The notes beneath the pieces were generated by a model. That model was not told where the DNA came from, did no database searches, and was given only the letters and a program-made list of their open reading frames with translations. Shown here piece after piece: positions 37,670-47,738 of a stretch of DNA of 52,461 nucleotides. This DNA comes from an uncultured Anaeromyxobacter sp. (GTDB taxonomy: Bacteria > Myxococcota > Myxococcia > Myxococcales > Anaeromyxobacteraceae): assembly GCA_903904005.1 (NCBI GenBank), contig CAIVAR010000058.1, positions 1 through 52,461 of the forward strand, read 5' to 3'. Each line of letters begins with the position of its first letter. Within the stretch, counting starts at the first letter, position 1. The translations under genes were made by a program, and so were the position numbers.

Positions 37670-40600
37670 GTGCCGTTCACCGCCTTCCTCCTGCCCCTGG
37701 CGCTCCTCGCCGCCGGGTCGCCCCCCGCCGCCCCGGCGCCGCGCGACCCCCCGGCCGCGGCCTTCGAGCGCTCGGCGTCGGAGCTCCGCCGGCGCCACGA
37801 CGACCCCGCCGCCATCGTGCCGCTCACCCGGATCCACGAGCTGGAGCCGACCCTCGTCGACCTCCCCCGCGTCGCCGCGGCCTACCGGGCCATCGCCGAC
37901 GATCCGAAGGCCCACCCCGAGGTCCGGTCGCTCGCGCGCTGGTACCTCTCCGGCGTCGAGGGCGCGCTGGGGCGGGAGGACCGTGCGCGGGGCGAGCGGC
38001 AGAAGCTCGGCTTCCTCCATGGCTGGTGGATCGTGGGGCCGTTCGACAACGAGGGGCGGGCCGGGCTCGACCGGGAGTTCCCTCCGGAGAAGGGAATCGA
38101 CCTAGAGGCCCGCTACCCCGGGAAGGCGCGCCAGGTGGGCTGGAGGGCGCTGCCGCCCGAGCTCGAGTGGTCCGGGATCGCGACCATCGGGACGGCGGTT
38201 CGCCCGCAGCACGAGGCGGTGGTCTATGCGCTGGCCGTTCCCGAGGTCGCCCGGGAGCGACGGGCGCGGCTCTGGGTCGCGGCGAGCGGTGCCTTCCGGG
38301 TCTGGGTGAACGGCGTGGTGGCCCTGGAGGACCGGGGCTACCACCCCGCGCGCCTGGACCAGGCGGCGGTGGAGGTCACCCTCCGGAAGGGGCCGAACCG
38401 GATCCTGGTCAAGCTGGCCCAGGACCAGGGGGAGATGGCCCTCGCGGTGCGGCTCACCGACCCGGCCGGCGCGCCGATCGACGCGTCGCCGGCGACGATG
38501 CCGCCCTGCCCGCCGGTCGTGGGGGGCGTGGCACCCCGTCCGGTTCCGGTCGTCTCGCTCGTGGCCGAGCTGGCGCGGCGGGCCGCCCGGGCGAAGGGGC
38601 CGGCGCAGGGGAGGGCCCGCATGGACCTGGCCGCAGCGCTCGCCGAGAAGCTGCCCGAGGACCTCTCCGAGCACGCCGCGGCGCGGGAGGCGCGTCGGGC
38701 CGCGGAGCTCTTGCCGGGCGACGCCGGGGCCCAGCTGCTCGCCGCCCGCCTGGAGGATCAGGACCCGAACCGGAGGCGCGAGTACCTCGAGGCCGCCCTG
38801 CGCGCCTCCCCGAAGGATCCGGTGGCACGGCTCGCGCTGGCCGAGGAGGAGCTCCGGCACGGACGCCCCCACGAGGCCGTGCGCCGTCTCGATCCGCTCG
38901 CCGCCGACTGGCCGGGCTGGGCGGCTCCCCGCGCGGTGCTGGCCCAGTCCTGGGAGCAGGTCGGCTATCCGGCCCGCGGGCAGGTGGCGCTCCTCCGCCT
39001 CGCCGCGGACTTCCCCGAACAGCCGGGAGCCGTCGAGCTCGGCGCCCGGACCGCCCGGCAGCTCGACCGGACCAAGGAGGCGATGGTCGGGTACCGGAGG
39101 TTGCTCGCGCTCCGGTACGACGACGCGGCGGCCCGTTCCGCGCTCGGATCGCTGCACGTCCGGCGGGGGGAGCTCGACGCGGCCCTCGCGCTCCTCGACG
39201 ACGCGGTCCGCCTGTCGCCCGGCGACCCGTTCCTGCGGCTGCGCCGCGCCGACCTGCTCGCGGCCAACGGGCGCGCCGAGGCGGCCGAGGCCGACTACCT
39301 GGCCGCCGCACGCCTCTCCCCGGACGAGCCGGAGGTGCACGAGCGGCGGGGGCGGCAGCTGCTCCGGGACGGGCGGCGGGGAGACGCGCTCGCCTCGCTG
39401 CAGGTGGCCTTCGACCTGAAGCCGCAGAGCACCCAGCTGAAGGACCTCACCCGCCAGCTCGAGCCGGAGCGGGAGCGCTACGAGACGCCGTACCTGGTGG
39501 ACGCCGCGGCGCTCGCGAAGTCGCCCCCGCCGCGACGGGGGGACGAGGACGCGGCCGTCCTCTCCGAGACCAAGGTCACCCGGGTCCACCCGTCCGGGCT
39601 CTCCTCCACCGCCTACCAGCTCGTGGCCAAGGCCTACACCCGGCGGGGCGCCGACTCCCTGCGCGCCCACCCCATCGGCTACGTGCCGGGGCGCCAGGAC
39701 ATCCGGGTCGAGCGGGCCCGGGTCTGGAAGCCGGACGGCTCGATGGTCGACACCCACCAGGAGGGGGACCGGAGCACGAGCGAGCCCTGGTACCGGCTCT
39801 ACTACGACACCCGCGTCCGGCAGGTGGTGGTGCCGGCGCTCGCCCCCGGCGACGTGCTCGAGCTCTCCTGGCGGGTCGACGACGTGGCCGGGGAAAATTT
39901 GCTGTCCGACTACTTCGGCGAGGTGGTGCACTTCACCGACGGTTCACGCAAGGAGCGGATGGACTACGTGCTGCTCGCCCCCGCGTCCCGCCCCATCCAC
40001 GCGAGCGACCCGAAGCTTCCCGGCGTCTCCCGCTCGGTGAAGGAGCTGCCCGGCGGCGTCCGCGAGTACCGCTGGACCGCCACCGACCTGCCGCGCATCC
40101 TGCCCGAGCCGGGGATGCCCGGGCCGTCGGAGTCCTCCGCCTCCGTCCACGTCTCCACCTACGCCTCCTGGGACGACGTGGCCCGGTTCTACGAGGGGCT
40201 GGTGCGCGAGCAGCTTCGCCCCGGTCCGGGCGTGCGTGCCGAGTCGGCCCGCATCGTGGGCGCCGTGCGGGCCCGCCCCGGGAGCGCCACCCTCGGGGAG
40301 AAGGAGCTGCGGCGCGAGATCGTGAAGGCGGTCTACGACGACGTGGTGACGAGCACGCGCTACGTGGGGCTCGAGTTCGGCATCCACGGGTACAAGCCCT
40401 ACCAGGTGGAGCAGGTGCTCACCCGCCGCTTCGGCGACTGCAAGGACAAGGCGAGCCTGATGCACGCGCTGCTCGAGGCCGCCGGCATCGACTCGCGCCT
40501 CGTGCTCCTGCGCATGCGAAGGCTGGGGAACCTGCCGCCTTCGCCGGCGTCCCTGGCCGTCTTCAACCACGCCATCCTCTACGTCCCCGAGTTCGACCTC

Positions 40601-41377
40601 TGGCTCGACGGCACGGCCACCGGCTCCGGTTCCCGCGAGCTGCCCGCCGAGGACCGGGGCGCCACCGTGCTGGTCGTGAACCCCGGCGCGCCGCCCACCT
40701 TCCGGACCCTCCCCGAGGCGGTGCCCGGCGACGACCGGGTCGAGACCGAGATCCACGGCGTGCTCGCCGCGGACGGGACGGCCACCGCGGAGGGAAGCCT
40801 CACGATCACGGGGGTGCAGGCGCCCGCCTTCCGGCGGGGATACCAGTCGGAGAGCGGAAGGCGGGGCGCGCTGGAGCAGAGCCTCGCCCGGACCTTCCCC
40901 GGCCTCCGGGTGGAGTCGGTGGAGACGAGCGACCTCTCCCGGATCGAGGACGACGTGACGGTGCGCTTCCGGCTCGCGGTCCCGCGCCTGGCGCGCCCCG
41001 AGAACGGTGGGCTCACGCTGGCCCCGTTCGGCCAGGGGCAGAACTGGATGGAGAGCTGGGCGCCCCTCTCCGAGCGACGCCACGACCTCGTGCTGCAGAG
41101 CCCGTTCGAGACCCGCTTCGCGCTCCGCTGGGAGCTGCCGCCCGGGATGGCGCCGGCGTCGTTGCTCGCGCCGGAGCGGCGCGAGGGGCCGTTCGGCGCC
41201 TGGTCGGTCTCGCTCGCGATGGAGGGGAACGTGCTCGTCGCCCGGGGTTCACTTCAAGTGACCTCCAGGCGCATCCCGGTCGCCGACTACCCGGCCTTCC
41301 GGGAGTTCCTCGCCGGGGTGGACCGCGCGCTCCTGCGCACCGTGCGCCTCGTCCGCGCCGGGGGAGGGATGCCGTGA
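37670..41377 (+). CDS. Giant secreted TPR-DUF3857-transglutaminase protein, triad intact
   Basis: 1235 aa from GTG 37670. After a signal-like N-terminus (MPFTAFLLPLALLAAGSPP) comes a helical part, then a jelly-roll-like domain (about 118-265: GWWIVGPFDN, FRVWVNGVVAL, GPNRILVKL) resembling carbohydrate-binding or glycoside hydrolase 2 sandwich folds. TPR-like repeats occupy about 345-610, DUF3857 about 620-800, and a transglutaminase-like domain about 865-990. The triad is readable: Cys924 in FGDCKDKASL, His967 in FNHAILYV and Asp980 in WLDGTA. A beta-rich end follows. It probably acts in the periplasm or cell envelope as a cysteine peptidase or cross-linking enzyme; substrate unknown. The next gene is a paralogue overlapping by GTGA. 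Confidence 0.85.
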   Translation: MPFTAFLLPLALLAAGSPPAAPAPRDPPAAAFERSASELRRRHDDPAAIVPLTRIHELEPTLVDLPRVAAAYRAIADDPKAHPEVRSLARWYLSGVEGALGREDRARGERQKLGFLHGWWIVGPFDNEGRAGLDREFPPEKGIDLEARYPGKARQVGWRALPPELEWSGIATIGTAVRPQHEAVVYALAVPEVARERRARLWVAASGAFRVWVNGVVALEDRGYHPARLDQAAVEVTLRKGPNRILVKLAQDQGEMALAVRLTDPAGAPIDASPATMPPCPPVVGGVAPRPVPVVSLVAELARRAARAKGPAQGRARMDLAAALAEKLPEDLSEHAAAREARRAAELLPGDAGAQLLAARLEDQDPNRRREYLEAALRASPKDPVARLALAEEELRHGRPHEAVRRLDPLAADWPGWAAPRAVLAQSWEQVGYPARGQVALLRLAADFPEQPGAVELGARTARQLDRTKEAMVGYRRLLALRYDDAAARSALGSLHVRRGELDAALALLDDAVRLSPGDPFLRLRRADLLAANGRAEAAEADYLAAARLSPDEPEVHERRGRQLLRDGRRGDALASLQVAFDLKPQSTQLKDLTRQLEPERERYETPYLVDAAALAKSPPPRRGDEDAAVLSETKVTRVHPSGLSSTAYQLVAKAYTRRGADSLRAHPIGYVPGRQDIRVERARVWKPDGSMVDTHQEGDRSTSEPWYRLYYDTRVRQVVVPALAPGDVLELSWRVDDVAGENLLSDYFGEVVHFTDGSRKERMDYVLLAPASRPIHASDPKLPGVSRSVKELPGGVREYRWTATDLPRILPEPGMPGPSESSASVHVSTYASWDDVARFYEGLVREQLRPGPGVRAESARIVGAVRARPGSATLGEKELRREIVKAVYDDVVTSTRYVGLEFGIHGYKPYQVEQVLTRRFGDCKDKASLMHALLEAAGIDSRLVLLRMRRLGNLPPSPASLAVFNHAILYVPEFDLWLDGTATGSGSRELPAEDRGATVLVVNPGAPPTFRTLPEAVPGDDRVETEIHGVLAADGTATAEGSLTITGVQAPAFRRGYQSESGRRGALEQSLARTFPGLRVESVETSDLSRIEDDVTVRFRLAVPRLARPENGGLTLAPFGQGQNWMESWAPLSERRHDLVLQSPFETRFALRWELPPGMAPASLLAPERREGPFGAWSVSLAMEGNVLVARGSLQVTSRRIPVADYPAFREFLAGVDRALLRTVRLVRAGGGMP

Positions 41378-44300
41378 GAACCCGCCGCGCCCTCCCGGCG
41401 ATCCTCCTCGCCGTCCTCGTCGCCCTTCCGTCCGCGGGCTCCGCCGGCGCGGCGGCCCCGTCCGGCTTCGACGCCTGGCTGCGGGGCGGGGACCCGACGG
41501 CGGCGGCCGCCCGCTTCCGGGTCGATGCGGCAGGCGATCCGACGAACCCGTGGCCGCGGCTCGGCGAGGCGATGCTCGCCGAACGCTCCCTCGACGGCGA
41601 GGCGGAGGCGGACGCGCTGCTCGCGATCGTGGCGGCAGCCCCCCGGCACCCGCTCGCGCTCATCGCCCTGCGCCGCCTCGGGGAGCTGTCCCTCGCCGCG
41701 CCGCCGGTGGCCGACCGGGTCGACGCCGCGCTCGCCCGGGCGCTCGACGGCTCCCGGCTTCCGGGCACGGCGGCGTACCGGGCCCGCGTCGTCCGCGCGG
41801 CCATCGCCGAGATGCGTGGGTCCTTCGCGGACGCGGCCGGCCTGCGCCGGCAGAACGGCGTCGCCGACGACTGGACGCTCGCCGGTCCCTTCGGCGCGTT
41901 CCACGCGATGGAGTTCGACCGCCCCTTCCCGCCGGAGCAGGGGACCTGGCCTCCCGCGGGTGCGCGCCCCCTGCCGGCCCCCGACGGCGCCCTCTCCCTC
42001 GACGGCGAGTCGATCCCGGGGGACGTCTGGTACGTCGCCGCCGACGCCGTGCTCGGTCGCGGCGGGCGCTACCTGCTCGCCGTGGGAACCACCGCATCGG
42101 CACGGGTCTTCGTCGACGGGCGACCCGTCGCCGAGCGGCGGGCCTGGGCGGGCTGGCCGTCGGCCGTCCAGCTCCTCCCCGTCGAGCTCGCGCCGGGAAC
42201 CCACCGGTTCCTCGTGAAGCTCACCCGGGGAGGGGCACGGGCCAACCTGGCGCTCTCCCTGGCGCGGGAGGACGGCGCCGCCTCCGACGCGGCGTGGAAG
42301 GCGGCGACAGGTCCGGGGCCCGCCTCCGTGAAGGGCGAGCTCCCCCGGGCGGTACTCGGGGCGCGGGCGCTCGCCGACCTGCTCGAGCCGGACGGCGGGC
42401 CCGTGCTGGCCCGCCTCGTCGCCGCCAGGGACAGGGTGGAGAACGACCGGCAGGCCGCGCTCGTCCTGCTCGACGAGGCGGCGGGGATCGCACCCGGCGC
42501 CGCGCCCGTGCGGGCCGCCCGCGGCGACGCCCTCTCCGGCGACCCGTCGCTGGCGGAGCGGATCGCGCGCGCGCGCGCGGAAGCCGACTGGCGCGAGGCC
42601 TCCCGGCTCGATCCGGGCGACTCGGCCACGCGGCTCGTCCTCGCCGAGGTGGCGATGGCGGGGGGGCGCCTCGACGACGCGGAGGCGCTGCTCGCCGGTC
42701 TGCCCGAGAAGGTCGCGGCACGTCCCAGGGCCCGCCTGGCGCGGGCGCAGCTGCTCGGCGCACGAAGCCACCCCGAGGCAGCGGAGAGCCTGGTCCTCGA
42801 GCCCTCCCGGGCGGGAAGCTGCGCCGGCGCCTCCATGCTCGCCGAGATGGCGGCGCGCCGCGACGCGATCGCGCTGCAGGACGAGGCCGTGGCGGCGCTG
42901 GCCCGCTGCCCCGGAGGGGCCGAGCGCGTCGCCGAGCACCGCCGCGTCCGGGGAGACCTGGCCGGTGCCGCGGCCGCCTGGACCGCCATCGCCCGTGCCG
43001 GCCCGGCCCGCATCGACGCCCGGATGGCGCTCGCCGGCGTGAAGGTCGCGCAGGGGGACCCGGCGGCGGCGGCGGCCGAACTCGAGGACCTGGCCCGGAT
43101 CTGGCCCGTGGACGGGCAGATCCAGCGCCGGCTGGGAGAGGTGTGGGAGCTCGCGGGTCGGACGGGCGAGGCGCGCGCGGCGCGGGAGCGCGCGCTCGCG
43201 CTCGACGGATCGGACCTGGTGCTGCGGCGCGCGCTGGCGCTCGAGGACGGGCGCGAGCTCCTCGCCGACCTGGCCGTCGACGGCCCGGCCACCATCCGCG
43301 CCTATGAGGCCGCCAAGGTCCCGGTCACCACGCCGGCCTCGCTGGTCCTCGACGCCGCCGCGGTGGAGGCCTGGCCCGACGGCTCCACCACCGAGCGTAC
43401 CCACCAGGTGATCCACGTCCACGACGCGCGGGGCGTGGAGAAGTGGGGCGAGGTGGAGATCCCGGCGGGTGCCACGGTGCTCAGGCTCGAGACCCGCAAG
43501 CGCGACGGCCGGATCCTCGAGCCGGAGGTGCACGGCGGCGACAAGCGCACCCTCTCCGCGGCCGGCCTCGAGCCGGGCGACTACCTGGAGGTCGAGTGGA
43601 TGCGCTCCCACTCGACCCGGCGCCCGGCGTCCCCCGGGTGGATCTCCGACCCCTTCTTCTTCCGCGGGGAGGACCTGCCGTTCTTCCTCTCGACCTACAC
43701 CGTGGCGGCGCCGGCGGGTGCGCTGCAGGTGGACGCGCGGAAGAAGACCCCGCCGCCGCAGGTCGTCCGGGAAGGGGACCGCGACGTGATGCGGGCCGAG
43801 GCGCACCGCGCCCCCGCGCTCGTGACCGAGCCCGGATCCCCGGGGATCTCGGAGTACGTCCCCATGGTGATGGTCGGGTCGGGCGAGGGGATCGACGGCC
43901 TCGCCCTCTCCGCGGCCGACGCCTTCCCCGAGCGCGTCCGTCCGGGGCGCGAGGTCGAGGCGCTGGCCCGTGCGCTCCGGTATCCCGCCGGCGCGCCGCC
44001 GCGGACCGGCGAGCCGCTCCTGCGCGCCGCCTACCAGGCGGTGATGGAGAAGGTGGACGGGACGGGTCCCTTCGCCGACCAGGCGAGCCACGTGCTCTCG
44101 CGCGGACGAGGGAACCGGCTCCTGCTCCTCGTGGCGCTGCTCGACGCCCTCGGCGTGCCGGCCCGGGTCGCGCTGGTCCGGCCCTTCTACGTCGACCCCC
44201 AGCCCTGGCTCTTCCCGCGCCTCGACCTCTACTCGTCACCGGTGGTTCGCGCCGAGGCGGACGGGAAGGTTTACTGGCTCGACCCCGGGACGCGCTGGGC

Positions 44301-45042
44301 GCCCTTCGGGGCGCTGCCGCCCGGTGCCCTCGACTCCGAGGCGCTGGTGCTGCCGCGCCCGGGCGAGTCGTTGCGCCGGGAGCGGACGCCGGCGCTCCCC
44401 GCCACGGACCGCAGCGAGGTCGTCCTGAAGATCCAGGTCGACGCCGGGGGCGACGCCACCATCGAGGGGGTCGAGACCTACCAGGGGTTCGAGGGGGCGG
44501 GCGCCAAGGGGGCCATCGAGCAGCTCGACGAGACCGGGCGGCGACGCGCCCTCGAGCGCGCGCTCTCCCGGAGCTTCCGGTCGCTGCAGCTCCAGGAGGT
44601 GCGCTTCGAGGGGGAGAAGGACTCCGCCGCGCCGCTCGTCATCCGCTACCGGGCCCGCGTCGCCGAGCTGGCCCGCCCGTCCGGTGGACGGCTCCTGATC
44701 GACGACGTCCCGTACCCGGCCAGGCTGACCGCCCGCTTCGCCCCGCTCGCCTCCCGGGAGGCGCCGCTCCTCATCGGCGTGGACGATCGCTCCTCGCTGC
44801 GCGTCGAGGTGACGCCGCCGCCAGGGGAGACGCCCGTCGCCGGCGCGCCCGTCCGCCTGGAGGCGCCGCAGGGGAGCTACGTGCGCGAGGAGCGGGTCGA
44901 GGGAGGACGGCTGATCCGGCAGGACCGGCTCGAGGTGCGTCGCGCCCGGGTCCCCGTCGACGCGTACCCCGAGTTCGCCCGCTTCGCCGCTGCGGTGGAC
45001 GAGGCTCAGGCGTTGCCGATCGATCTGGGCGAGGCGAAGTAG
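41374..45042 (+). CDS. Paralogous giant TPR-DUF3857 protein with degenerate transglutaminase site
   Basis: 1222 aa from GTG 41374, overlapping the previous stop (GTGA), with a signal-like start (RRALPAILLAVLVALPSAGSAGA). The architecture copies its neighbour: jelly-roll (about 166-299: WTLAGPFGAFHA, VFVDGRPVAE, GTHRFLVKL), TPR-like helices (about 390-640), DUF3857 (from about 650), transglutaminase fold and a beta-rich end. Where the neighbour has FGDCKDK, this protein has SRGRGNR, with Arg912 in place of Cys. The His position is Ser955; only the Asp is kept (Asp970, YWLDPGT). It is therefore probably non-catalytic and may be a partner or regulator of the active copy. Confidence 0.83.
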   Translation: MRTRRALPAILLAVLVALPSAGSAGAAAPSGFDAWLRGGDPTAAAARFRVDAAGDPTNPWPRLGEAMLAERSLDGEAEADALLAIVAAAPRHPLALIALRRLGELSLAAPPVADRVDAALARALDGSRLPGTAAYRARVVRAAIAEMRGSFADAAGLRRQNGVADDWTLAGPFGAFHAMEFDRPFPPEQGTWPPAGARPLPAPDGALSLDGESIPGDVWYVAADAVLGRGGRYLLAVGTTASARVFVDGRPVAERRAWAGWPSAVQLLPVELAPGTHRFLVKLTRGGARANLALSLAREDGAASDAAWKAATGPGPASVKGELPRAVLGARALADLLEPDGGPVLARLVAARDRVENDRQAALVLLDEAAGIAPGAAPVRAARGDALSGDPSLAERIARARAEADWREASRLDPGDSATRLVLAEVAMAGGRLDDAEALLAGLPEKVAARPRARLARAQLLGARSHPEAAESLVLEPSRAGSCAGASMLAEMAARRDAIALQDEAVAALARCPGGAERVAEHRRVRGDLAGAAAAWTAIARAGPARIDARMALAGVKVAQGDPAAAAAELEDLARIWPVDGQIQRRLGEVWELAGRTGEARAARERALALDGSDLVLRRALALEDGRELLADLAVDGPATIRAYEAAKVPVTTPASLVLDAAAVEAWPDGSTTERTHQVIHVHDARGVEKWGEVEIPAGATVLRLETRKRDGRILEPEVHGGDKRTLSAAGLEPGDYLEVEWMRSHSTRRPASPGWISDPFFFRGEDLPFFLSTYTVAAPAGALQVDARKKTPPPQVVREGDRDVMRAEAHRAPALVTEPGSPGISEYVPMVMVGSGEGIDGLALSAADAFPERVRPGREVEALARALRYPAGAPPRTGEPLLRAAYQAVMEKVDGTGPFADQASHVLSRGRGNRLLLLVALLDALGVPARVALVRPFYVDPQPWLFPRLDLYSSPVVRAEADGKVYWLDPGTRWAPFGALPPGALDSEALVLPRPGESLRRERTPALPATDRSEVVLKIQVDAGGDATIEGVETYQGFEGAGAKGAIEQLDETGRRRALERALSRSFRSLQLQEVRFEGEKDSAAPLVIRYRARVAELARPSGGRLLIDDVPYPARLTARFAPLASREAPLLIGVDDRSSLRVEVTPPPGETPVAGAPVRLEAPQGSYVREERVEGGRLIRQDRLEVRRARVPVDAYPEFARFAAAVDEAQALPIDLGEAK

Positions 45043-45049
45043 GGTGTCG

Positions 45050-45733
45050 ATGGTCAAGCTCCAGTACCTGCTTCGCGCGCCAGCCTCCGAGAGCGTGGAG
45101 GCGTTCCGGGATCGGGCACTCGCCACGGGCGCCCGCCTCCTCGCTTGCGGCCCGGCGCGGCTGAAGCTCACCTTCACCGCCGAGGAACCGCCCCGGCTCT
45201 CGGTGATGCCCTTCCGCCGGGATCGCCTCCTCCTGGTGTCGCTGTGGGACGACGGGGAGCCCGGGGCGGCCGCGCCCCGCTGGAATCCGATCCTGGAGTC
45301 CGAGGGCGCCGTGGAGGGCTACCGCGTCGACGAGTCGGTGCCGCGGGAATACCGCCACGACTGGCCCGACGGGCGCGACACGCCGGGCGGAAGCATGCTC
45401 ACCCTGCTGCACCGACGGGCCGGCCTGACCGACGCCGAGTTCCTGCGGCGGTGGCACGACGGCCACTCGCCGCTCGCGCTCCAGATTCACCCGCTGTGGA
45501 ACTACGTGCGCAACGTCGTCGCGGCGCCGGTCCTGCCCGGGTCCCCGCCGCTCTGCGGGATCGTCGAGGAGCAGTTCCGCAGCCGCAGCGAGCTTCTCGA
45601 CCCCGTGGCGTTCTTCGGCGGCTGGCTGCGGATGGTCCCCAGCATGCTCCGCGTGTTCGTCGACGTCCGCGGCTTCCTGGACCTCGCCGCGATCGAGAAC
45701 TACCTGGTCACGGAGCGCTGGATCCGGAGCTGA
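45050..45733 (+). CDS. EthD-like ferredoxin-fold protein
   Basis: 227 aa from ATG 45050 (AGGG 8 bases upstream); a GTG at 45044 would add two residues. The C-terminal half has an EthD-like segment: MLTLLHRRAGLTDAEFLRRW followed by HDGHSPLA and HPLWNYVRNVV (about 115-160). EthD-domain proteins are small alpha/beta-barrel dimers of mixed function, some binding hydrophobic or quinone-like compounds. The N-terminal half may be a second, more divergent barrel module. It begins 7 bases after the DUF3857 paralogue and may share its transcript. Function unknown. Confidence 0.75.
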   Translation: MVKLQYLLRAPASESVEAFRDRALATGARLLACGPARLKLTFTAEEPPRLSVMPFRRDRLLLVSLWDDGEPGAAAPRWNPILESEGAVEGYRVDESVPREYRHDWPDGRDTPGGSMLTLLHRRAGLTDAEFLRRWHDGHSPLALQIHPLWNYVRNVVAAPVLPGSPPLCGIVEEQFRSRSELLDPVAFFGGWLRMVPSMLRVFVDVRGFLDLAAIENYLVTERWIRS

Positions 45734-45743
45734 CGTCGAGGGT

Positions 45744-45758
45744 GGGCGCGGTGCGCCC
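45744..45758. terminator. Hairpin between two convergent genes
   Basis: GGGCGC-GGT-GCGCCC, a perfect 6-bp stem with a 3-base loop, occupies the 31-base gap between the EthD-like and lipoprotein stops. It can form on both strands and could be a bidirectional terminator, though no T-tract is present. Confidence 0.4.
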
Positions 45759-45764
45759 CGTCGG

Positions 45765-46100
45765 TCACTTCCCCGCGGCGGGCGGCAGCGGTGCCGGCAG
45801 CACGCTCGCCGGGTACGAGCCGGTGACGTCCAGCCAGGTGTACGCGGGTCCGGCCGGCGCTCCACTCGCGACGGACTTGTAGCGCCTGACGATCCCACAG
45901 ACGTCCAGGTCGACCGTGGAGCCCTCGCTGCGGATGATCCGGATGCGCTCCAGGGGGCAGCCGTGGTCGAACGCGACCTGCGCCCCGACCGTGCTGATGG
46001 AGCCGAAGTTCACCTTGCCCACCGGCTCCCCCGGGCTGGCGGTCACGCAGCCGCTCATGACGATGGCAATCGCTCCGGCGACGAGTCCGATGGTCTTCAT
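45765..46100 (-). CDS. Small predicted lipoprotein
   Basis: 111 aa from ATG 46100, preceded by GGAGGAACCGA, a strong ribosome site. The lipobox is IVMSGC with Cys18. The mature part (about 93 residues) has two further Cys (48 and 68), probably a disulphide, in FDHGCPLERIRIIRSE and DLDVCGIVRRYKS, and a Pro-rich end. It resembles small outer-membrane lipoproteins of unknown function. It is divergent from the HEXXH peptidase across a 132-base gap. Confidence 0.8.
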   Translation of the reverse strand: MKTIGLVAGAIAIVMSGCVTASPGEPVGKVNFGSISTVGAQVAFDHGCPLERIRIIRSEGSTVDLDVCGIVRRYKSVASGAPAGPAYTWLDVTGSYPASVLPAPLPPAAGK

Positions 46101-46153
46101 TCGGTTCCTCCGTGGACGCGGTGGGCGCCAAGATCTCGGCTTGCACACCGTAA

Positions 46154-46172
46154 CACCCCTTCTCGAGGGGTG
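46154..46172. promoter_or_regulatory. Inverted repeat in the lipoprotein/peptidase divergent promoter region
   Basis: CACCCCT-TCTCG-AGGGGTG, a perfect 7-bp repeat with a 5-base centre, lies near the middle of the 132-base gap between two divergent secreted-protein genes. It could be an operator acting on both. Confidence 0.4.
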
Positions 46173-46194
46173 CGCGGATCCCGCACCTCCGCTC

Positions 46195-46223
46195 TTCGCA
46201 TGCCGCTGGATGTGACATAGGGT
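46195..46223 (+). promoter_or_regulatory. Promoter of the HEXXH peptidase gene
   Basis: TTCGCA (46195-46200, 4/6), 17-base spacer, TAGGGT (46218-46223), then 9 bases to ATG 46233. The predicted transcript is leaderless or has a leader of about 2-3 bases. Confidence 0.5.
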
Positions 46224-46232
46224 CAACTTCCC

Positions 46233-47738
46233 ATGAGCCGACACCTCCTGGTCGCCCTTCACCTCCTGTCGGTCGTTCCCGTCATCGCCAGGGCCGAGAT
46301 CGTCGCCTGCCCGGACCCGGAGGCCCCCGCCTGGGTCGAGGTGGCGAGTCCCCATTTCCTCGTCCGGACCGACGCCGGCGACCGCGTCGCCAGGGACGCG
46401 GCCCAGCACCTGGAGCGGCTCCGGGTCGCCACGGTGAGGTCCGCCTTCGGCGGCAAGCTGGAGGCGCCGGGCGTCACCGAGGTGGTGATCCTCCGGGACG
46501 ACGAGGAGATGGCCGACCTCACCGGCCGCAAGGAGTCGGACGAGATGCTCGGCGGGTTCTTCCAGGTCTACCTGGGGCGGAGCCGCATCGTCGCCACCCG
46601 CAAGTTCCTCCCCTACTCCCCTTCGCTCCACACGCTCCAGCACGAGATGGCCCACCAGCTCATGGCCCATGCCTTCCCCCGGCAGCCCCGGTGGTTCTCC
46701 GAGGGGATGGCCGAGTTCCTCGCCGCCGTGGAGGTCAACGAGGCCGGCGACAGGCCCGTGGCCGTGCTCGGGAAGCCTCCGCCGCCGTGGAAATGGCAGG
46801 AGAAGGTCTCCGCGAGCGAGGTCCTCTCCTGGGCCTGCGGGGGAGCACGGGAGGTTCCCTGCTACCAGTCGGCCTGGTGGCTCGTTCATCACCTCATGAA
46901 CAGCCGGGCCGACGCCTTCGCCGACTTCCAGCGGCGGCTCGCGCGCGCGGAAGATCCCGCAGCCGCATGGAAGGCCTCCTTCCCGGATCTCGACCCGGCC
47001 AGCGCCAAGGCGATGGACGCATTCGACACGGTGCTTCGCGACTACAGCCGATCGGGTCGGTACGGGGTGGCGAAGGTCCCGTTCGACGAGCCCAAGCTCA
47101 CCCTCACGTCCCGCCCCATGGCGTGTGCCGAGGTGCGGGCGACGTACGCCGAGATGGTGATGAACCCGTTCCAGGTGGACCCCGCGGCCGGTCCCCGGCG
47201 CGCGGCGGCGGAGAAGGCGGCTTCCCTGAAGCTCGACCCCTCCGGCCTCCCGGTCTGGCGGCTGCTCGCGCTGGACGGCGCCTCGCCGGAGACCTTCTCC
47301 CTCGCCGCCAGGGCGGTGAAGGCGAGCCCGGGCGACTGGCGAGGCTGGTACCTCGTGCTCGCATCGGCAGGCGAGGCACCGGCGAACCAGTCCCTCCGGA
47401 AGGAGGCCATCGAGAAGCTCGCGTCCGCCCCTCCCGACGACGTCATGGTCCTGAGCGACCTCACCTGGGCGCTGCTCGGCCAGGGAGACGACGGGCGCGC
47501 GGTCGCCGTCGCCGCCCGCGCCGTGAAGCTCGCCCCCTGGGAGCCGCTGGTCGTCGACGCGTGGGCCGTGGTCCAGGCGAGCCTGGGGCAGTGCAAGGAG
47601 GCGCGGGCGGCCATCCAGCGCGCCGTCGACCTCGCGACGGGCGAGCACGGCGGCGGAAAGGCCCCCTACCTGGAGCGTCAGCAGGTGATCGAGAAGCACT
47701 GCGCGGGGGCCCCGGCCCCGCCGAAGCCAAAGGGCTGA
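46233..47738 (+). CDS. Secreted gluzincin-type metallopeptidase with TPR-like end
   Basis: 501 aa with the signal peptide MSRHLLVALHLLSVVPVIARA. An N-terminal segment WVEVASPHFLVRTDAGDRVA is typical of DUF1570/peptidase_MA-like proteins. Zinc ligands are His137 and His141 (HEMAHQLMAH) and Glu157 (RWFSEGMAEFLA), a full HEXXH plus Glu site, so it should be active. The C-terminal half (about 310-490) contains TPR-like helices (LAARAVKASPGDW; AVAARAVKLAPWEPL). It probably acts in the periplasm or outside. Substrate unknown. Confidence 0.85.
   Translation: MSRHLLVALHLLSVVPVIARAEIVACPDPEAPAWVEVASPHFLVRTDAGDRVARDAAQHLERLRVATVRSAFGGKLEAPGVTEVVILRDDEEMADLTGRKESDEMLGGFFQVYLGRSRIVATRKFLPYSPSLHTLQHEMAHQLMAHAFPRQPRWFSEGMAEFLAAVEVNEAGDRPVAVLGKPPPPWKWQEKVSASEVLSWACGGAREVPCYQSAWWLVHHLMNSRADAFADFQRRLARAEDPAAAWKASFPDLDPASAKAMDAFDTVLRDYSRSGRYGVAKVPFDEPKLTLTSRPMACAEVRATYAEMVMNPFQVDPAAGPRRAAAEKAASLKLDPSGLPVWRLLALDGASPETFSLAARAVKASPGDWRGWYLVLASAGEAPANQSLRKEAIEKLASAPPDDVMVLSDLTWALLGQGDDGRAVAVAARAVKLAPWEPLVVDAWAVVQASLGQCKEARAAIQRAVDLATGEHGGGKAPYLERQQVIEKHCAGAPAPPKPKG

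Follow-up and report, generated by a model that had tools for sequence, protein, structure and literature searches.

An enzyme-pseudoenzyme pair of giant DUF3857-transglutaminase genes is kept across most of Myxococcota, with the same cysteine loss in the second copy. As read from the sequences, one ancient duplication produced gene A, in which the thiol triad is kept, and gene B, in which the whole fold is kept and the GDCKDK loop has become a conserved G-[SN]-R. The pair was studied in the window, i.e. the whole stretch of 52,461 nucleotides analysed here, which is a contig of a GC-rich 4.56-Mb assembly of an uncultured Anaeromyxobacter. We consider it an evenly balanced proposition that B would be a usually membrane-anchored pseudoenzyme serving the soluble enzyme A as scaffold or regulator, the two forming a two-protein periplasmic module.

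Gene A (37670..41377, 1235 aa) and gene B (41374..45042, 1222 aa) both begin with GTG and lie on the + strand, as do all features given below. Both assignments draw on sequence, Pfam, orthologues and predicted models. The two genes share four bases, GTGA (41374..41377), in which the start of B overlaps the stop of A; the adjacency and the overlap, also found in the family loci, are thus as the original prediction had described them. A and B have a common architecture comprising a helical N-terminus, a beta domain, TPR, DUF3857, a transglutaminase fold and DUF3858. In A, a predicted signal peptide without lipobox (37670..37756, from pattern and inspection of the sequence) is followed by a predicted beta domain (residues ~120-263, 38027..38458), a TPR superhelix seen by Pfam and in the model (residues ~297-597, 38558..39460), and a DUF3857 domain that scores far above the curated Pfam cut-off (39593..40096; 5e-26, 92.2 bits vs 24.6). 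The transglutaminase core (40301..40612; Transglut_core 2e-8, 34.9 bits vs a cut-off of 23) carries GDCKDKA, FNHA and WLDGTA in the orthologue alignment and hence the complete Cys-His-Asp triad, and a weak DUF3858 match below cut-off lies at 41069..41314. B displays a signal peptide by pattern (41374..41460), a predicted beta domain (residues ~166-310, 41869..42303), a modelled TPR superhelix (42361..43245), TPRs being matched by Pfam too, and a DUF3857 domain also above cut-off (43375..43818; 1.9e-8, 35 bits vs 24.6). No Pfam match to Transglut_core was obtained in B at E <= 1. Of the modules supposed to be shared, TPR, DUF3857 and the transglutaminase fold stand, while the ‘jelly-roll’ comes down to a predicted beta domain with no Pfam match in A or in B.

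The two proteins are clearly paralogues, with 29% identity across the C-terminal ~500 aa (BLASTP E 1e-24) and a profile-profile match of E 4.5e-66 over 566 columns. The predicted model of B is confident (pLDDT 94). For both proteins the top fold match is structure 3kd4, with Foldseek 2.2e-23, Z 31.4 and 494 residues for A and Foldseek 1.8e-18, Z 17.9, 465 residues and rmsd 4.2 for B, which shows by prediction that B shares the fold.

The triad of A was correctly identified from the start: Cys924, His967 and Asp980 lie within a motif RFGDCKDKA...FNHA...WLDGTA that is kept in A orthologues, and all three residues are intact in 81/81 A sequences. At the Cys loop, B presents LSRGRGNR (its R910-R915 part, 44101..44118 by orthologue alignment, standing in place of the catalytic GDCKDK), with S955 at the His position and a retained Asp970 (WLDP). 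The catalytic Cys expected of an active transglutaminase-like enzyme is missing from the window's B and from every other B examined, in two surveys of 46/46 and 47/47 sequences that share some genomes; by this loss throughout its orthologues B classes as a pseudoenzyme, and the pairing of enzyme with pseudoenzyme that had been proposed holds at the sequence level. The His position varies among B sequences and is actually occupied by His in 10/43 relatives, so the defining loss is that of the Cys. Consequently, the idea of a downstream copy keeping only the Asp describes the window's B and is not a rule, although Asp970 itself is D in 40/43.

Which residue of B stands in for the Cys also needed correction. 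The original prediction had read Arg912 and Ser955 at the Cys and His positions; the residues are indeed there, but R912 is R in 35/43 B sequences (otherwise E or Q), whereas all 43 share G913 and R915. A four-residue loop precedes the active-site helix in both predicted models; the first residue of that helix is Cys924 in A (position 888 of the mature protein) and Arg915 in B (position 886 of the mature protein). Because of these equivalent helix starts, the models suggest that GDC was converted to G-[SN]-R, with Arg915 and not Arg912 at the Cys position, a reading taken from secondary-structure strings rather than from superposition. Moreover, the RYVGLEFGIHGYKPY stretch, conserved in A beside the active site, is lost in B. 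A different Cys/His pair in the second active site was looked for and rejected: the only two cysteines of B, 483 and 512, belong to the TPR region, which leaves the cleft without an alternative nucleophilic Cys. These two residues (window ~42820-42910) are present together in 36/43 B sequences and absent together in 7/43, which suggests a disulphide, probably gained in the Myxococcia line.

That relatives conserve the pair, which had been set as a check, was confirmed. In the window's own family, A is followed by B in 16 loci including the window; the overlap is exactly 4 bp in 12/16, and gaps of 8-26 bases separate the genes in the remaining ones. Across the phylum, the same 4-bp overlap is found in 23/41 callable loci. 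Of the 79 genomes of the order, almost every one yields a strong DUF3857 match corresponding to A, and most also yield a weak second one corresponding to B. Half of B used as a BLAST-type query gave matches in the genus only, and later profile searches reached further: with the B profile, B was found in the genomes of the order except G004 and G012, and it is interrupted by a contig end in G025. G004 and G012, both family members, are devoid of A as well as of B; either the module can be dispensed with in some genomes or these are assembly gaps. A scan of named genomes, run with the A alignment since the B alignment has no conserved stretch, gave 80 A loci, with B directly downstream in 48 of the 70 that have at least 3.9 kb of downstream sequence. 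Adjacent A-B pairs were thus also recovered in Nannocystis, Sandaracinus, Labilithrix and other Polyangia-type records, and broken B frames follow A in two loci (L118 and L173). The 22 A loci without B nearby are mostly from Myxococcaceae. In this group (f4) both genes are nevertheless present in 46/46 genomes searched; wherever the two could be assigned to a single contig, they are separated by tens of kb (317485 vs 276676 in G055, for instance). Translational coupling, proposed to be tight, is therefore reflected in the conserved overlap but is dispensable, as Myxococcaceae keep A and B unlinked. A Myxococcaceae MAG carries two tandem A-type genes (L104, 3955-11468; 282 and 840 bits), an additional duplication.

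The genomic context gives a second view of this linkage. The Myxococcia loci read gpmI-comF-A-B, with a hemW-like gene next in convergent orientation. A remains with gpmI and comF in Myxococcaceae; in the f6 lineage A lies by gpmI and B by hemW, pointing to a break between two once-adjacent genes, and the same layout is given for the G017/G034 lineage. Other classes have unrelated flanks, among them an AMP-ligase with Lon, UbiA, LexA, an MBL-fold protein and a radical SAM protein. Chance adjacency inside a conserved neighbourhood could thus be rejected, the flanks being replaced while the pair persists. The sole constant neighbour of A or B is the partner gene, which among the indirect arguments for a functional A-B link is the strongest. 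None of the flanks examined offered an informative partner or pathway from which a function could be read. In the window itself, an EthD-like ORF lies directly after B and is followed by a TPR/DUF1570 gene (together 45044-47738), both between B and hemW; their products have no match in the other loci searched, and hemW in relatives is often almost directly 3′ of B. In another locus (L052, G009:C146), the GTGA overlap of A involves, instead of B, a gene for a TlpA/thioredoxin-like protein (FWASWCEPC), which could keep the thiol of A reduced. B of that genome lies on a different contig, beside hemW, and this overlap of A with a TlpA/thioredoxin-like gene was found in no locus other than L052.

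In a phylogenetic analysis of 93 sequences, one branch sets all B apart (support 97) and all A likewise fall together on one side (66); families branch in a similar order inside A and B. The duplication is thus older than the separation between the f12/f13 lineages and the class Myxococcia. A single B group was also recovered (98/96) in a smaller tree that included outgroups from plasmids. B evolves faster than A in the tree, and Nei-Gojobori dN/dS of close pairs ranges over 0.13-0.33 for A and 0.13-0.47 for B; both copies are under purifying selection, and B, with values well below 1, is not decaying. The highest B value (0.47) comes from two loci of one genus (L048 and L049, in G008 and G031), where the Asp motif reads WLAGN or WLDGA, and suggests relaxed constraint on B in that genus. 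Conservation in A is highest in the transglutaminase domain (0.67 vs 0.55 overall). In B, the transglutaminase-like domain is average (0.49 vs 0.48 overall) and DUF3857 is the most conserved part (0.54). Constraint therefore moved from the transglutaminase domain in A to DUF3857 in B, G913 and R915 remaining invariant, the pattern expected if catalysis was lost and another role of the fold was kept.

Signals for localization, called by simple patterns and not by a trained predictor, differ between the two proteins. In nearly all species the hydrophobic signal at the N-terminus of A contains no lipobox. For B, a lipobox is found at 33/41 callable starts, covering most relatives, so that B of most species is predicted to be a lipoprotein. 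The window's genus (the window, L035 and L036) differs: its B signal is devoid of the lipobox Cys, and the lipid anchor seems to have been lost there. We propose that A would be the enzyme, a thiol peptidase or a transamidase/deamidase with a protein or peptide of the envelope as substrate. In most species a membrane-tethered B would bind A or the substrate of A via the TPR helix and the dead cleft, and this binding would place and gate the activity of A at the surface of the membrane. Where the anchor appears lost, as in the window's genus, B would act as a soluble partner.

This proposal has to be weighed against other roles for B. B could be an independent envelope lipoprotein whose dead cleft became a binding site, its adjacency to A being inherited from the tandem duplication without any physical or functional link. 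The unlinked genes of Myxococcaceae and of the G017/G034 lineage, the faster evolution of B and the occurrence of Cys-less members alone, as in Rhodanobacter (L182), all speak in favour of such independence. On the other hand, adjacency has outlasted the complete replacement of flanks across classes, no Myxococcaceae genome has one gene but not the other, and a similar paired arrangement is also found in Persicobacter. We therefore regard an independent B as unlikely, yet as the most serious of the alternatives. B cannot be read as a decaying pseudogene or as an annotation artefact. This notion finds comfort only in the loss of catalytic residues and is refuted by full-length ORFs in dozens of genomes, phylum-wide retention and a confident fold, and we rejected it on the dN/dS values; its probability is next to nil.

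Alternatively, B could be an inhibitor that holds A inactive at the membrane and releases it on a signal, by analogy with LapD and the transglutaminase-like protease LapG. A soluble, triad-bearing A with a lipidated B would fit this scheme, and transglutaminase-fold proteases working under membrane partners are known from LapG/LapD. But B is devoid of a signalling domain, A is not related to LapG by Pfam, and co-expression would equally fit an obligate partner, all of which make inhibition improbable. It is still less probable that B remains an enzyme using other residues in the old cleft. The invariant G913 and Arg915, the conserved Asp970 and strong purifying selection would be consistent with residual activity, but the site has no nucleophilic Cys, its domain is no more conserved than the rest of B and the neighbouring RYVGLEFGIHGYKPY segment is gone. 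The scaffold or regulator reading of B thus remains the one we favour. Since Myxococcaceae keep both genes unlinked, single deletions would be possible there without polarity. More generally, the conserved active/dead pair offers the DUF3857-transglutaminase family a concrete testable unit, the questions being the ligand of the dead copy and the substrate of the active one.

Among known systems, LapG/LapD, in which a periplasmic transglutaminase-fold cysteine protease is controlled by a membrane protein, may be a working analogue of the module. Unlike B with respect to A, however, LapD is not a paralogue of LapG, and at E values up to 1 Pfam gives A no LapG/BTLCP match. RloB (PMC12239564) and HM2192 (PMC12096838) are further inactive proteins with a transglutaminase fold and effects on the envelope, but of different architecture. 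Proteins of this kind resemble B in being periplasmic and catalytically dead, with an envelope phenotype, but their partners are an aspartic protease and an ATP-grasp protein and they have 7 TM helices (PMC12096838). No Pfam match to the RloB-type seven-transmembrane inactive transglutaminase domain was obtained in B, where only DUF3857 and TPR are matched. The DUF3857-transglutaminase family itself, though widespread, is nearly absent from the open literature searched, the mention found being only the naming of a gene beside lolA.

The closest relatives of the pair come from Bacteroidota. Sequence searching gave a single solved relative of this domain set, structure 3kd4 (BDI_1141 of Parabacteroides distasonis). 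It shares the DUF3857-transglutaminase-DUF3858 C-terminal domains with A and B, while its solved chain (505 residues) contains neither TPR nor the N-terminal beta domain. Like B it has no catalytic Cys, GDCKDKAS of A aligning to GTPLEIAQ, which makes its filing as a ‘putative protease’ doubtful. Plasmids of Persicobacter (L176 and L179), plasmids being the extent of our Bacteroidota coverage, carry tandem DUF3857 genes, the first with GDC and the adjacent second without Cys. These proteins are short (613-671 aa) and have no TPR or beta modules; the second copies show SNEAG and GNSAD instead of G-[SN]-R, their orthology to B is unsure (support 84/70), and the first copy of L179 has Glu at the Asp position. 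A Rhodanobacter plasmid (L182, 5641-7506) encodes a DUF3857 protein with GTAED in place of GDCKD, and the stretch examined around it contains no further DUF3857 gene.

The Cys-less 3kd4 and the Persicobacter tandems indicate that the lost-cysteine theme and the pairing are broader than Myxococcota. The claim that no described system has this layout consequently has to be toned down. A wider reading, to which we give somewhat less than even credence, is that most of Myxococcota possess a heteromeric envelope module: a pseudo-transglutaminase, lipid-anchored and bearing the invariant G-[SN]-R in place of GDC, would capture and gate a soluble thiol enzyme; the related Bacteroidota active/dead pairs would then make this an unrecognised general principle of enzyme-pseudoenzyme pairing in the DUF3857 family. 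With 3kd4 and Persicobacter as partial precedents, this putative DUF3857 envelope module had previously been unstudied, and what is particular to the Myxococcota pair is its giant TPR architecture, its invariant G-[SN]-R, its predicted lipidated dead partner and its near phylum-wide retention.
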